Positions 5,147 through 20,244 of a DNA stretch of 20,257 bases are shown here, piece after piece. This DNA comes from Pavlovales sp. CCMP2436 (lineage: Eukaryota; Haptophyta; Pavlovophyceae; Pavlovales): NCBI GenBank assembly GCA_026770615.1, contig MU631411.1:248728-268984 (forward strand), written 5' to 3'. Below the pieces are notes generated by a model. The model made no database searches. It saw only the letters and a list, made by a program, of their open reading frames with translations, and was not told the DNA's origin. The position numbers were made by a program, and so were the translations under genes. Positions within the stretch are counted from its first letter, which is position 1; the number at the start of each line of letters is the position of its first letter.

Positions 5147-5930
5147 TTCACGGGCATCGTGGGCGCGAGGCTCGCACGACGCATCGGCAGCCGCGCCTGA
5201 GCTGCAGGCACGGGGACGGTCTGCATACGCTGTGCGAGCGACATGAGCGTCTTCTCCTCGCCGGCGAGCCGCGATGCGTCAAAGTCATCGGCACCGTGCT
5301 CGACCTGCACGCGCTCGCGCTCGTCGGAGGAGGAACCATCGTCGTCTGAGCCGTAGCTGATGGGCGGCGCAACGCGCGTGCTCAGGCCTGCCGCCGTGAG
5401 CGGAGCCAGCGGGGTACCTGCCAACCGGGCCCTTGCGCACCACGTCGAGCGGATTCACGCGCATCGTGGGTGCGAGGCTCGCGCGACGCACCGGAAGCCA
5501 CGCCTGCGAAGCAGGCGTCGTGGGCGCCGATGACGACCACCGCGCCCTCAGCGGCGACAGCGGCTGCGCGGCGGACCGCTGCAGCGAGTCGCCGCCCGGC
5601 GCCGATGACCGCTTGACCGTCCCTGCCGCGAGGCCGTCCTTGGCGTGCAAGACTTCTTGGGACGAGCCTCGCGTGCGGCGTCGGAGCGTCGCATTGTCCA
5701 TCTCGGCGGCGGGCGCGGAGGCGGCCTGCCTGCTCAGCGCGTGCGCCATGCGCCAGGGCGACAGCAGCTTCTGCGCGTCGGCGCCATCAGCCTGCATGCG
5801 CTGCACGCGCTTCCAGCCGCCCGCGCCGCGCTTCGAGGTGCGCGCCGGTACCGCTGAGAGCATCTTGAAGAGGCGGCCAAGCAGCCGCGGCGGCTGGTCT
5901 TTGGTGAGCGCAAACGTGAGCTTGAACGGT
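5147..5930 (-). other. Inverted cytosolic segment of the polycystin-like protein
   Basis: Read on the minus strand from about 5930, the protein begins 'SPFKLTFALTKDQPPRLLGR' and 'LFKML', which is what should follow a membrane helix in this family, then runs through a basic Ser/Arg-rich region to a unit 'RRASLAPTMRVNPL', an acidic 'YGSDDDGSSSDER' patch, and a second 'RRASLAPTMPVNPL' ending near 5147. The second unit then leads naturally into plus-strand 'EGPVGRLTPLAPL' at 5937. A 2-bp indel near 5418 breaks the minus frame. The plus-strand translation here has no recognisable content. This is the second block of the gene found in reverse. Confidence 0.65.
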
Positions 5931-6107
5931 GAGCGAGGGCCCGGTTGGTAGGCTTACCCCGCTGGCTCCGCTCACGGCGGCAGGCCTGAGCACGCGCGTT
6001 GCGCCGCCCATTAGCTACGGCTCAGACGATGATAGTTCCTCCTCCGACGAGCGCAAGCGCGTGCAGGTCGAGCACGGTACCGATGACTTCAATGCGTCGC
6101 GGCTCGC
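5264..6107. repeat. About 170-bp inverted repeat (5264-5433 and 5937-6107)
   Basis: The two arms encode nearly the same peptide (TPLAPLTAAGLSTRVAPP, then YGSDDD and VQVEHG), one on the minus and one on the plus strand. They differ by scattered substitutions and a 2-bp indel. In the undisturbed gene these were most likely direct tandem protein repeats; inversion of the block between them has made them head to head. A sub-part, 'RRASLAPTM.VNPL', is present twice inside the inverted block. Confidence 0.75.
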
Positions 6108-7399: not shown

Positions 7400-9959
7400 C
7401 TGCAAAGATTATAAGCGGCTCAGCATGGTTCAACAGGTGGTGTTGAGTCACTGACTTCGTCGACGCCAGACATGAGTCCTGGCAGATGGCACCTGCAAAT
7501 ATTGAGCGAAAAGTTTATTTTTTTATTTTTATCGATAACGTTAGGACAGGGGGGGAGGGGAGGGAGGTTGTTGGCATGTGTTAGGCCAGAGGGTGTTAGG
7601 CCAGAGGGTGTAGGTTGCTGGGAATACTTGGAGAAGGACGGAGAGACGACGCGGGGAGTAAGATAGCACATGAGACGACCGATGCGCTGACCCTCCCATG
7701 TCATGCCCTTACGCCTTCGGGCTGCAAGTCGTGGGACGTTAAAAGAACTATTATAAAAAAAAGGATATAGGCAACGTCACTTTATGGTAAGGGCGACTGG
7801 CAACTGCTGGAGCCAGGTCTCGGTTGCTGCCGAAATTAAAAACCGTATTTGGTTAAAAACTAGTTTACAGTTTACAGTACTTATCGCATTGGTAATCCCT
7901 TGCCGGTAAGGGATTCACCAGGAACAAAGTCCTGGCCCCAGCAGAGGCAGCACGGCCAGCAAGCGCGCACCTATGTCTGGTTTTAATAATAGTTCTTTCA
8001 ACGTCCCCCGGCTTGCAGCCCGAATAACTAGGCTTGAGACCGAGAGCTTTTTTATTATTTATTTATTTATTTATATACATTATTTATATTGACATCTATT
8101 TTTAAGCGCACCACGAATTCGTTTTGATGCTCGATTTTCATGTGCCGCAGAGCGTCGGACACGTGCAGATGCAGGTTGGACGGTTTCACGCGCGTCAGCT
8201 GCTCCTCGCGAATAACGGAGACACACGCCTCGACCAGACTGGTGTGTTTTAATATTATTGGTATTAATATTAGCGGCTCGGCATGGTTCAACAGGTGGTG
8301 TTCACTCACAGACATGGTCGACGATGACAAAGTCTCGAGCAGAATAAAGGTCAAGGATAGCGGAGACACACGCTTCGACCAGACAGGTGTGTTTTAATAT
8401 TATTGGTATTAAAATTATTTATTAATAACTAATTTGCTTTCCTATGAAGCTAAACTCCAGGCATCTCAATGAGATACGATGGGTTTGTCAAGGGCGCTAA
8501 TATGTGTGAATGTTATTTATGTCAATAATATGTGTCAATAATAAATAAGATTAGCCTGGTGTGATGTAGCACAGAAGGCGGAGAGGGAGAAGAAGGGGTG
8601 TGTGTATGTGGGTGTGTGTGTGGGGGGGGTGGGAGGGGGGGGGGTGAACATCGCACGCTTCAACCGGTCAGTGTTGTTCATAATATTTATTATGATTCGT
8701 ATTATGCTCTCAATCATAATTATTATTAACAATAATAAATATTCATTAAAAATAAATATTCATGAACAATGTTCATATGATTAAGTATTATGCCTTCAAT
8801 CATAAATATTATTAACAATGTCATGCACGCCTAGGCAATGTCGGTAAACACACACACACACACACACAACACAACACACATCAGCATTGACCAGGCTGAT
8901 ATGTTTTGATGTAACACACATCAGCATTGATCGGCTGATACGTTTTGATCGGCTGATATGTTTTGATCGGCTGATATGTTTTGATCGTCATTGAGCTACC
9001 AATCAGACAATCATTTTTGTGTTTTGTTTTGAAGTGCAATTGTGACTCTGGTTCGAGTACGAATGTGTTACAACTCGTGGCAGCAGACTAATTCGAATCC
9101 GGACTAGGCCGAATCCGGGGCAACTGCCAAACAAGGGCAGTTGCAAGATCCCTGGAGTCTAGCCAAATAGGATTAGCGAATTAGTATGTGCACCTGAAAT
9201 CGAGGCGCACTAGGATATTACTCATCATCATAATCTCAGGTGCTGCCTTTGTTTGGCAGTTGCCCCGGATTCGGCCCAGTTCAGATTCGAATTAGTCTGC
9301 TATCGAATTAGTCTGCAAAAAAAAAAAAAAAAAAAAAAAACCTGAAATCGAGACGCACCAGGATCTTAAACTCATAATCTCAGGTGCTTCCTAAGATATT
9401 TAAGCATTGCCTGTATGTAATTTACTAAGAAGCTGAGCCTCATCAACTCAAAAAAGTGCACCTCGGATCGAGTACATTAAAACCTAAAAGTAAAAAAAAA
9501 TGGTAAAATAATAGATACCGTAAATACTAGTTCTATCGAATTATGTAAATACTAGTTCTATCGAATTATCTACGAATCAAATTACGAATCAAGAGGCAAA
9601 CCACCTGTGTGTAAGTTTCTAGTTCAATTCCGTCCCCGGGAGGCTCGCAGTGGACCCGAGCGTTGAAAAACACTCAGATTTAGGGATCCACCCCGGGCAC
9701 ACGGATACCATCCCCACCGCTGATCAGATCAGACATGCACCTTGGATCGAGGCGCACTAGGAGAGTAGGTTTTGTGAAGTATTTTGTTTCCAAGTGTGTG
9801 CAAATAATTAGATTAACGTCTGTCCCCTGACAGGTCTCCACCGGATCCAAGCGTTGAGAACCACTCGGGCTCAGGGACCTTTGCAGAGCACACGGATACC
9901 GTCCCGAAAGACGAAAAAAGTGCACCTTGGATCGAGGCGCAGTGGAGACGATCAATACG

Positions 9960-13255: not shown

Positions 13256-14343
13256 CATATATTTGTATTGATATAGGTGCGAGGTGGTGCTATTCGGCCT
13301 TCTCCGCGAGCCGGTCAGCCACCTGCTCGCCACCTACAACTACTTTGTCACCAATGAACAAGGACGCATGCCCGGCCGCTTCGGGCGCAGCTTCGGCGAG
13401 TGGACCGGCAGCCGGCACGTGCACAACCTGCAGTCGCGCCTCCTCGAGGGCGAGCCGGTGATACGCATCGAGGTGGACCCCCTCGTCCGCTCGAGCCGCA
13501 CCCGAGCGCAGCGCCTCGGCCTCGGCCTCCCGCGTAGCGAAAACGGCAGCGGCGGCAGCAACGAGCATCACCTGCCGCGCTACGCGCAGCTGTACAGCAC
13601 GATGCCTGCTGACGTGCACGCGCGGCAGCCGCGGCTGCTCGAGACGTTGGCCAGGTTCGACCTGCTTGCACCGATGGGGTGTTTCGACGAGGTCTATTTT
13701 TTTTTTTTTTTTAGCAATATTCCTTTTAACCTCCCCCGACTTACAGCCCGAAGGCGTACGGGAATGACATGGAGGGTCAGCGCATCAGTCGTCTCATGTG
13801 CTATCTTACTCCCTGCGTCAGGTCTGGTTTCTACTCGCGAGGCGCCTCGGGCTACGCAACCTCCGCTACCACATGCACAACCAGGCCAATTTCACGCGGA
13901 TGCAGCGGCAGAAGTTGGAGGCTAGAGGGAAGTTGGGGGATCGGCAGAAGCTGCGTAGGCCCGACGCGATGCTTGTGAAGCCACCCTGGGTGCTTTCGCT
14001 CGACGTGCAGCAGGCGGAGTGGCTGTGGCGCGAGAAGCTCTCAGCAGACGTCAGCCTGTACGCGAACGTTTCCGCAGCCTGGGGGCGCTTCACCGCGTCG
14101 CTGGACGCGCCGACTCGGCGGGACATGGCAGAGTTCGTGCGGCTGATGAGCGCGGCCCGCGAGGAGCAGATGCTCTCCGAGAACAAAGTGGTTGAGCTAT
14201 GGAACCAACGAGAGCGCAGCCCAAACGCGACGAGTAAGCTGGCGCAGTGGAAGCTGCTCTGGAAGCTCAGGTCTCGAGTGAAGGACTCGCTCGTCGATTC
14301 GGCGCCGGGCTCCGCGGTCCCAGTTTTCCATGGACCCAGATGA
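12549..14343 (+). CDS. PAPS-dependent sulfotransferase-like protein, four exons
   Basis: Exons 12549-12918, 13014-13137, 13277-13691 and 13822-14343 join into one frame of 476 codons plus TGA. The N-terminus (MATSRTVVLLCVCTALLGSA) is a signal peptide or signal anchor, so the protein is secreted or in the Golgi lumen. Residues about 50-63, 'HVEKCAGTTFRKHF', match the 5'-phosphosulfate loop of carbohydrate sulfotransferases, and 'LLREPVSHLLATYNYF' at about 173-188 matches the 3'-phosphate motif. 'FDLLAPMGCFDE' and the helix after intron 3 resemble the C-terminal part of heparan 2-O-sulfotransferase-type enzymes. The likely reaction is transfer of sulfate from PAPS to a cell-surface or secreted polysaccharide; the acceptor is unknown. 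All introns are GT-AG, and phases (1, 2, 0) are consistent. Sequons (NAT, NVS, NFT) are present near the C-terminus. Confidence 0.8.
12919..13013 (+). other. Sulfotransferase intron 1, TCA-repeat intron
   Basis: 95 nt, GTTTTTATTT at the start and TTATTAG at the end. Its middle is a TTTA run followed by a long (ATC)n microsatellite, so it is almost wholly simple sequence. Phase 1 join gives 'PPGGGEARRHVF'. Confidence 0.8.
13138..13276 (+). other. Sulfotransferase intron 2, (TA)n/(AC)n intron
   Basis: 139 nt, from GTGCATATATG to TTGATATAG. It consists mainly of TA dinucleotides with an (AC)n run. GGTGC stands at the donor and again at the acceptor. The phase 2 join gives 'WQPRGCEVVLFG'. Confidence 0.8.
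13692..13821 (+). mobile_element. Sulfotransferase intron 3: introner-family copy 2
   Basis: 130 nt. After GTCTA and a T-run it carries CCTCCCCCGACTTACAGCCC, GAAGGCGTACGGG, GGGTCAGCGCATCAG and GTCTCATGTGCTATCTTACT, shared with the copies at 7651-7757 and 19338-19440. AGGTCT occurs at both exon-intron junctions (13690-13695 and 13820-13825), a possible 6-bp target duplication. The whole intron is essentially the element. Confidence 0.8.
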
Positions 14344-18904: not shown

Positions 18905-20244
18905 TCACCAGAGCGAGCTCCTGCCGAGCGGCCCAACATAATCGCCAAAATGTACTTGAGACTTCGTGTCCTTGGTGACGTGCTTCGTCGAGTAGACGTT
19001 GGTGTAGTCCGCGGTGTGGTGCTTGTCCTCCGCGCCCATCTCCCCGAAGTTGTAGGTGACCGCCGTGTCCTTTAGTGCATGCGCGCCGGAGTAAGTCGGA
19101 TCGAACGCGAGCCGGTCCGTCGCCGGGCCGTCGCCGAAATTGTACGTTTGGTGCGAGTCCTGAAGGGGCGGAGCGAAAGCGCGCGCATGGAATCGCAGTG
19201 GATCAGACCACCTCCACGCGAACGGCAATCCCCTCCGCACGCGCGATAGGGAAGGCAGGCAGGCAGCGCAGAGGGTGAAGACAGGACGGGCGAAGGCAGA
19301 TACGAGTTATAAATCATGCGTAAACCGTCCGCTCTTTGACAAGCGGGCAAGATAGCGCATGAGACGAATATGCGCTGACCCTCCGATGGCATGCCCGTAC
19401 GCCCTCGGGCTGCAAGTAAGGGGGACGTTAAAAAAAAAAAAAGGCTCACCTCGCCAGCGTGCACGATGGGCTTGGACTTGGGCAGCTCCAGCGATGGGCC
19501 CGAATCGGCTCTTCGCTCGGAGGGATTTGCAAAGCTCGCGGTTGCCACACGGAGCGCCGTACGGCCGAGCGGGGCGCCCGACGGGCGCTCCCACGGGGCG
19601 GGGCGCGATTTTGGACGGATCTCGTCGTCCGCCTGCTCGTAGCCACCAGAGCTGGGTGTACCCAGCGCGCCCACGCTCTCGATTCGCTTGGCGCGCGGGC
19701 CGCTCAGGTCGTGCTCGCCTGTGATCTTTGCCGTGGGCGGCTTGGGCATCCGCCGACGCACGGACTCGTGGACGTACACGTCGGTGCGCGGGTCGGGACC
19801 GAGGACGCGCCTGTCCCAAGGGGATATTAAAAAGCAGGAGGGGGTCTGCCTTGGGTCTGCAGCTTGAGCTTGAGCAGTCTCCCTGCAAAAGGACAGTATG
19901 AATACGAACATTGCTTAAAAGCTCCCGGACTCAGTCCGGGCAGAAAGATTCCTTTTCGAGCATCATTCTATGGAGTTTCGCCCCCTCTGTTTTTTAATAT
20001 CCCCTTGCCTGTCCTCGGCTGAGATCAGCGGGACCTTCCGCGCTATCGTCGAGGCGTCGACGGCCGGCAGCTCCACCATCCCGCGCAGGCGCACGCCGCG
20101 CGCGAGCTGCAGCTGCCGGCCGTGCTCGTACTCCCCGGGCTCGGGCCGGCGTGGGAACCACTCGAACCCGCCCTGCTCGCTCGGCAAGTTGTGCGCGATC
20201 CCGAGCGGTGCATCGCTGGACGCGCGGAACATAGCGTGCTGCAC
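18905..20244 (-). CDS. Uncharacterised protein, three exons, possibly 5'-partial
   Basis: Exons 20244-20009, 19810-19450 and 19159-18905 join in one frame (283 codons plus TGA). I do not recognise a domain. The N-terminal exon has 'EWFPRRPEPGEYEHGRQLQL'; the middle exon is Pro/Arg-rich with 'PKPPTAKITGEHDLSG'; the last has three spaced motifs, 'TYNFGDG', 'TYNFGEMG' and 'VHFGDY', about 30-34 residues apart, with His/Tyr/Thr-rich linkers. Such short repeated motifs without hydrophobic core are seen in filament- or microtubule-associated proteins, but that is a guess. Intron 1 is GC-AG and is a transposon-like element; intron 2 contains an introner-family copy. The exon could begin earlier: ATGGCAG at 20252-20246 may be an acceptor, with more exons beyond the window. 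Confidence 0.65.
19160..19449 (-). other. Intron 2 of the uncharacterised gene with introner-family copy 3
   Basis: 290 nt from GTGAGC (19449) to CCCCTTCAG (19160), phase 0. Its 5' part (about 19440-19338) is the introner family in sense orientation: T-run, AACGTCCCCCTTACTTGCAG, GGCGTACGGGCATG, GGGTCAGCGCAT, GTCTCATGCGCTATCTTG. The remaining 170 nt is unrelated GC-rich sequence with TGCC repeats (CTGCCTGCCTGCC). Confidence 0.75.
19817..20007. mobile_element. 191-bp TIR element forming a whole intron (introner)
   Basis: CAAGGGGATATTAAAAA at 19817-19833 is perfectly inverted at 19991-20007. CCTGTCC (GGACAGG on the coding strand) flanks it at 19810-19816 and 20008-20014. Splicing AG|GC...AG|G within the two copies of the duplication (intron 20008-19811, 198 nt) restores 'SAEDRRVLGPDP' in frame. 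The interior holds a 7-bp-stem hairpin CCCGGACTCAGTCCGGG (19924-19940) and no ORF. Confidence 0.85.

Follow-up and report, generated by a model that had tools for sequence, protein, structure and literature searches.

A terminal inverted repeat element that probably formed a GC-AG intron, and its low-copy family, in the haptophyte Pavlovales sp. CCMP2436

Introners derived from DNA transposons carry terminal inverted repeats (TIRs), are flanked by target site duplications (TSDs), draw splice sites from the target and restore the coding sequence when spliced (Gozashti et al., 2022, PMC9860276). As that paper presents them, both splice sites of some families, as in Florenciella, originate in the target sequence, and up to half of the donors in some families are GC. 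The principle of TIR/TSD introners that use target splice sites and GC donors is thus known; the main text of that paper does not name the Pavlovales. Comparable elements occur in Amoebophrya, where inverted repeats lie inside the intron ends, direct repeats span the exon borders and a hairpin is possible (Farhat et al., 2021, PMC7789003).

Here we describe a related arrangement in a 20,257-nt window (C105:248728-268984), the whole stretch of DNA that was analysed and to which all coordinates without a prefix refer. An earlier note on this DNA had described a 191-bp element with perfect 17-bp TIRs and a flanking 7-bp duplication, interrupting a minus-strand gene. Both ends could be located exactly: the left TIR is CAAGGGGATATTAAAAA, its reverse complement closes the element as a perfect 17-bp match, and the duplication (GGACAGG on the gene strand, CCTGTCC on the plus strand) is perfect in both copies (Table 1). 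When 200 first-order Markov surrogates of the window were searched for TIRs of at least 12 bp with TSDs of 4-10 bp within 400 bp, three pairs were found in total, versus three in the real window; the other two real pairs are nested within one palindrome near 9082-9301 and have 4-bp repeats, and the focal pair combines 17 with 7 bp. Sequences related to the interior of the element occur at two other genomic places, C98 (78% over positions 1-177) and C53 (77% over 6-88), with a truncated relative at a third. The relative at C98 is flanked by GGTAGT and no longer has a right end. An interior common to C105, C98 and C53 is as expected of a mobile element and not of local filler.

Table 1. Features of the focal gene and its intron, with the basis for each assignment.
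Feature	Window position	Strand	Basis
Non-autonomous TIR element, 191 bp	19817..20007	-	Sequence; relatives at C98, C53
TIR copy; gene-strand complement precedes acceptor	19817..19833	+	Sequence
TIR copy; gene-strand first bases CAAGG complete GC donor	19991..20007	-	Sequence
Donor-side TSD copy GGACAGG; last G (20008) is intron base 1	20008..20014	-	Sequence
Acceptor-side TSD copy GGACAGG; CAG is acceptor, last G (19810) starts exon 2	19810..19816	-	Sequence
GC-AG intron, 198 nt (element plus one TSD length)	19811..20008	-	Sequence; spliced junction in P0001
Upstream exon seen in window	20009..20244	-	5' boundary 20244 guessed from possible acceptor; assembly N run farther upstream
Exon after element	19450..19810	-	Sequence, protein comparison
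Next intron, GT-AG, 290 nt, with poly-A repeat at 19349-19436	19160..19449	-	Sequence
Last exon with stop codon	18905..19159	-	Sequence, protein comparison

On the gene strand the locus reads GAGGACAG|GCAAGGGGATATT...AATATCCCCTTGGGACAG|GCGCGTC, with a donor starting GCAAGG and the acceptor GGACAG|GCGCGTC. Excision of the intron joins the end of exon 1 at 20009 to the start of exon 2 at 19810 and gives back the pre-insertion sequence with the frame kept, as the earlier note had stated; left in place, the element brings a TGA into the exon frame. The 7-bp repeat allows eight registers, of which, read by eye, GC-AG alone has standard intron ends. A homologue search with the spliced 279-aa product returned three matches. 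One of these is P0001, a jgi protein of 430 aa whose longest contig has 1514 bp. It matches the spliced product at 279/279 residues, both junctions included: SAEDR|RVLGP spans the element site and HAGE|DSHQ that of the next intron. Because its 1290 coding bases together with introns of 198 and 290 nt exceed 1514 bp, P0001 most likely derives from spliced RNA, to judge by these lengths. Its genome match at E 0.001 is this locus alone (residues 146-430), upstream of which it reads KLTQVQHAM against PPWQVQHAM in the genome, adjoining the N run. P0001 joins exactly at the TSD, in agreement with the proposal that the AG|G in each duplication copy is used at a splice junction and that the donor is of the GC-AG type. 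The second match, P0002, is the NCBI model of the same gene in Pavlovales sp. CCMP2436, with identical residues except for different exon choices. The third, P0003, comes from a relative (60% identity over 43% of the query) and has the corresponding residues across the C105 junction, so that the site is read through. Pfam searches of the focal protein and of P0001 found no domain.

The earlier note had also proposed a genome search for the element ends, with copies listed inside and outside introns. We searched a partial assembly of 119,351,458 bases in 703 contigs; the published CCMP2436 genome is larger, reported as 165.4 Mbp in 2,243 scaffolds (PMC9756366), and the assignment to this strain is based on the proteins. 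The TIR does recur: its 17-mer has 26 exact matches (0 for a reversed control) and 76 with at most two mismatches (6 for the control). Of these, 75 lie in the loci examined, C419:131430 having been left out, and one-ended matches, such as L020 with a 21-bp end and a 7-bp repeat, were excluded from the counts of lengths and TSDs. A viral contig with a 19-mer of the TIR was attributed to chance, as the stretch scanned holds no second TIR end, and a repeat group of about 1.3 kb (L004, L030, L043, L046, L048 and partly L009) was rejected as family copies because its TIR-like stretch lies within a larger repeat. Three long copies are introns of coding exons and are outnumbered by short copies that resemble scars.

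The three long copies, at C105, C23 and C107, each retain both ends around a long interior and are flanked by a perfect 7-bp TSD. They measure 191, 157 and 120 bp, with TSDs GGACAGG, AGCCAGG and CGCCAGG, respectively, and correspond to GC-AG introns of 198, 164 and 127 nt in coding exons, lengths that cover all three modulo-3 classes. All three TSDs end in CAGG on the coding strand, the acceptors are CAG|G, and the donors are CAG|GCAAGG at C105 and C107 and CAG|GCATGG at C23. A weaker long candidate, at C77, has 135 bp, a TSD of GTACACT versus GTCCACT (6/7) and a target other than AGG. C105 and C107 have in common a stretch of 37 bp at one end, TIR included, which is found at the donor end of the intron in one of the two genes and at the acceptor end in the second; the signals must therefore lie in the TIR and TSD and not in the interior. 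The interior of C23 is unrelated to those of C105 and C107, and what the three copies have in common is the TIR and the TSD.

Evidence for splicing differs among the copies, being the protein P0001 at C105, homologues at C107 and a gene model at C23. The 120-bp copy at C107 interrupts a YfcG-like glutathione transferase gene whose spliced chain matches PF13410 and aligns with 4mf7_A and similar structures without a gap at the junction. Among ten homologues (E of 1e-60 or better, scored among the 8000 candidates with the most shared words), the nine from outside CCMP2436 all extend through the junction, in some cases with one-residue gaps close by. The tenth, the CCMP2436 model (NCBI P0004), reads KARQAREY, runs into the element and stops there. 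The element at C23 is spliced out as predicted in the NCBI model P0014. A homologue search with the C23 product found the CCMP2436 model and no independent relative, and a Pfam search of this protein found no domain. NCBI models are thus correct at one of the three introns (C23), and such GC-AG introns may be under-counted.

We propose that a non-autonomous cut-and-paste transposon bearing this TIR would enter a coding exon at an NNNCAG|G target, of which 7 bp would be duplicated. The last G of the TSD and the first TIR bases, CAAGG (CATGG at C23), would then form the GC donor, which accords with the earlier claim that the TIR provides the downstream part of that donor. The opposite TIR would contribute a T-rich and then C-rich pyrimidine stretch directly before the second TSD copy, the CAG of which would act as acceptor, and splicing would take out the element plus one TSD length and restore the original coding sequence. 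Since the TIRs are inverted copies of each other, either orientation would yield identical splice signals, and the AGG-ending target would decide the outcome. The proposed rule can be stated base by base: a target ending in AGG plus a TIR starting with CAAGG, in either orientation, would give a spliceable intron. The intron RNA is predicted to fold into a long TIR hairpin that brings its ends together (-78.3 kcal/mol, z -5.1, none of 200 shuffles folding as well), and a hairpin this strong might mask the splice sites. The insertion history, the branch point and the transposase class are what we infer from these patterns. For the C105 intron as a whole, we put the probability of the transposon insertion explanation at roughly 0.9. 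The spliced junction in P0001, the recurrence of the TIR and the two further intron copies of the same geometry all agree with the intron gain by a non-autonomous transposon (introner) that the earlier note had suggested.

The family also includes 27 short two-ended copies of 25-46 bp, picked by hand (26 plus L057). No two of the 27 have the same sequence, so that independent events are more likely than a single mobile micro-element, and we infer that these copies resemble excision scars. Of the 27, 19 are flanked by a 7-bp TSD with no more than one mismatch, which is perfect in 12; the eight others are L008, L019, L021, L025, L031, L037, L040 and L060. Random locus positions show a 7-bp repeat with one mismatch or none at some offset in range in 13% of cases (2480/18966), and single-mismatch TSDs are therefore individually weak. 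AGG is present in both TSD copies in none of the 19 short copies with a TSD and in one copy only in a single case (C56, L034). The contrast with the long copies, 3/3 versus 0/19, gives a Fisher value of 0.0006, or 0.002 with inclusion of the weak C77 candidate. The short copies thus serve as a natural control, with the identical kind of ends and no AGG target. Stubs measure 15-24 bp on the search side in the 26 copies scored and 0-21 bp on the other, the 0 (L031) being an artefact of edge setting. Because the search relied on a single well-conserved 17-bp end, search-side stub lengths are biased to 17 bp and more: the 17-base search sets their lower limit and leaves their upper limit free.

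These scar-like copies raise an alternative, namely that the intron is a repair product in which excision left TIR stubs and repair DNA was copied between them, instead of an intact insertion. We consider this doubtful for the intron, and only tentatively entertain the broader idea that repair filler, even filler from the host gene as at C23, can turn a scar at a CAG|G target into an intron by making it long enough. At C23, the interior (L001 1412-1497) has its only other genomic match within the same gene, inverted, at L001 2002-2087 (76/86 bases, 88%), about 0.5 kb downstream and spanning an exon end, and the flanking stubs were scored at 19 bp each. Gap repair templated nearby after excision would yield such a filler, but capture by an element would too, and filler and source differ by 12%, a high figure beside intact TSDs. 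Similarly, the divergence of all 27 short copies, with stubs of up to 24 bp, is consistent with repair, but these copies could be separate internal deletions, and their stub lengths carry the bias of the one-end 17-bp search. C107 looks like a rearranged derivative, which would suit the repair alternative, whereas the interior that C105 has in common with C98 and C53 counts against it. If repair were nevertheless the origin, introns would arise when the transposon excises as well as when it inserts, and the stubs themselves would hold the body of the GC donor and the pyrimidine tract.

It is very unlikely that the C105 position already had an older intron which the transposon later invaded or displaced. 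Existing introns often contain transposons, but here the element plus the TSD accounts for every base of the intron, the TSD is coding on both sides, and the same complete fit is seen at C107 and C23. Barely credible is the proposal that the segment is not spliced as described, with the GT-AG intron of the NCBI model being the true one and the GC-AG intron an artefact: P0002 does use another intron at the focal site, which counts against our reading, but the 24 residues that it drops are present in P0001, joined exactly at the TSD, and the stretch is also found in P0003.

Other repeats were observed in the window and elsewhere in the genome. At 13692-13821, in a plus-strand gene, an antisense poly-A repeat lies between AGGTCT direct repeats and forms a candidate 130-nt GT-AG intron; splicing GACGAG|GTCT...TCAG|GTCTGG would restore the pre-insertion sequence, and the repeat looks, from its sequence, like a second, retroelement-type intron. 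We take this gene (around position 13.7 kb) to be sulfotransferase-like; Pfam and PDB searches with its protein gave no match. Further copies of the poly-A repeat lie at 7648-7762 and in the next intron of the focal gene, and a genome-wide search scored 40 of 569 first-look candidates. A third repeat family accounts for an intron in the C107 gene (reverse strand of L052, about 1150-1260); this intron starts with GTAAGGAGGTTCTGGCTGGCGG, has an A-rich end and is flanked by the near-identical TTTGAATCAG and TTCGAATCAG; this family has 27 places with at most two mismatches genome-wide (0 for the control). Several kinds of mobile element may have become introns in the CCMP2436 genome. The window also contains 61-bp direct repeats, 93% identical (8212-8272 and 8357-8417), an 8-bp inverted repeat with 7-bp flanking repeats TTGGTAT (8265-8402), an imperfect palindrome of about 220 bp (70%; 9082-9301), and inverted repeats of about 180 bp, 92% identical (5264-5441 and 5928-6107).

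With regard to transposon class, the family resembles MITEs in having TIRs, a TSD and no coding capacity and in being repeated in the genome. The P transposase is described in a review as cutting 17 bp inside the TIR, and such a cut would leave stubs like the short copies here (PMC7776569). However, the same review gives P-element-type TSDs as 8 bp, versus 7 bp in the three long and 12 perfect short copies, which sets the family apart from the P-element superfamily on this character. The P-element-type RNase H domain PF21787 has one genome match, at C342 (L069, C342:158625-159026; E 2.7e-8, no stop within the matched stretch). The family TIR was not found on C342 with up to two mismatches, and no link between this match and the family was seen. 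No autonomous partner with the same TIRs was seen in a search of one domain family in the partial assembly.

Overall, this is a new example of a known intron-gain route in a marine alga, a haptophyte, and it adds the Pavlovophyceae to the groups with transposon-made introns. Within the literature searched, mostly without supplements or subscription papers, the TIR family, the host class, the use of both orientations, the scar-like relatives and the host-derived interior appear to be new, and no paper there combined "introner" with a word starting "Pavlov". The Amoebophrya elements differ in their direct repeats of 3-5 nt and many non-canonical splice sites (PMC7789003), in contrast to 7 nt and GC-AG here. 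As in introners, element boundaries coincide with intron boundaries at C105, C107 and C23, and similar copies occupy unrelated sites, in three genes, although their number is low. With three to four long copies, the family falls below the smallest of those reported by Gozashti et al., which has five, and neither the use of both orientations nor scar-like relatives are described in the Results and one Methods section of that work (PMC9860276). We therefore call the C105 family a low-copy variant of introners.
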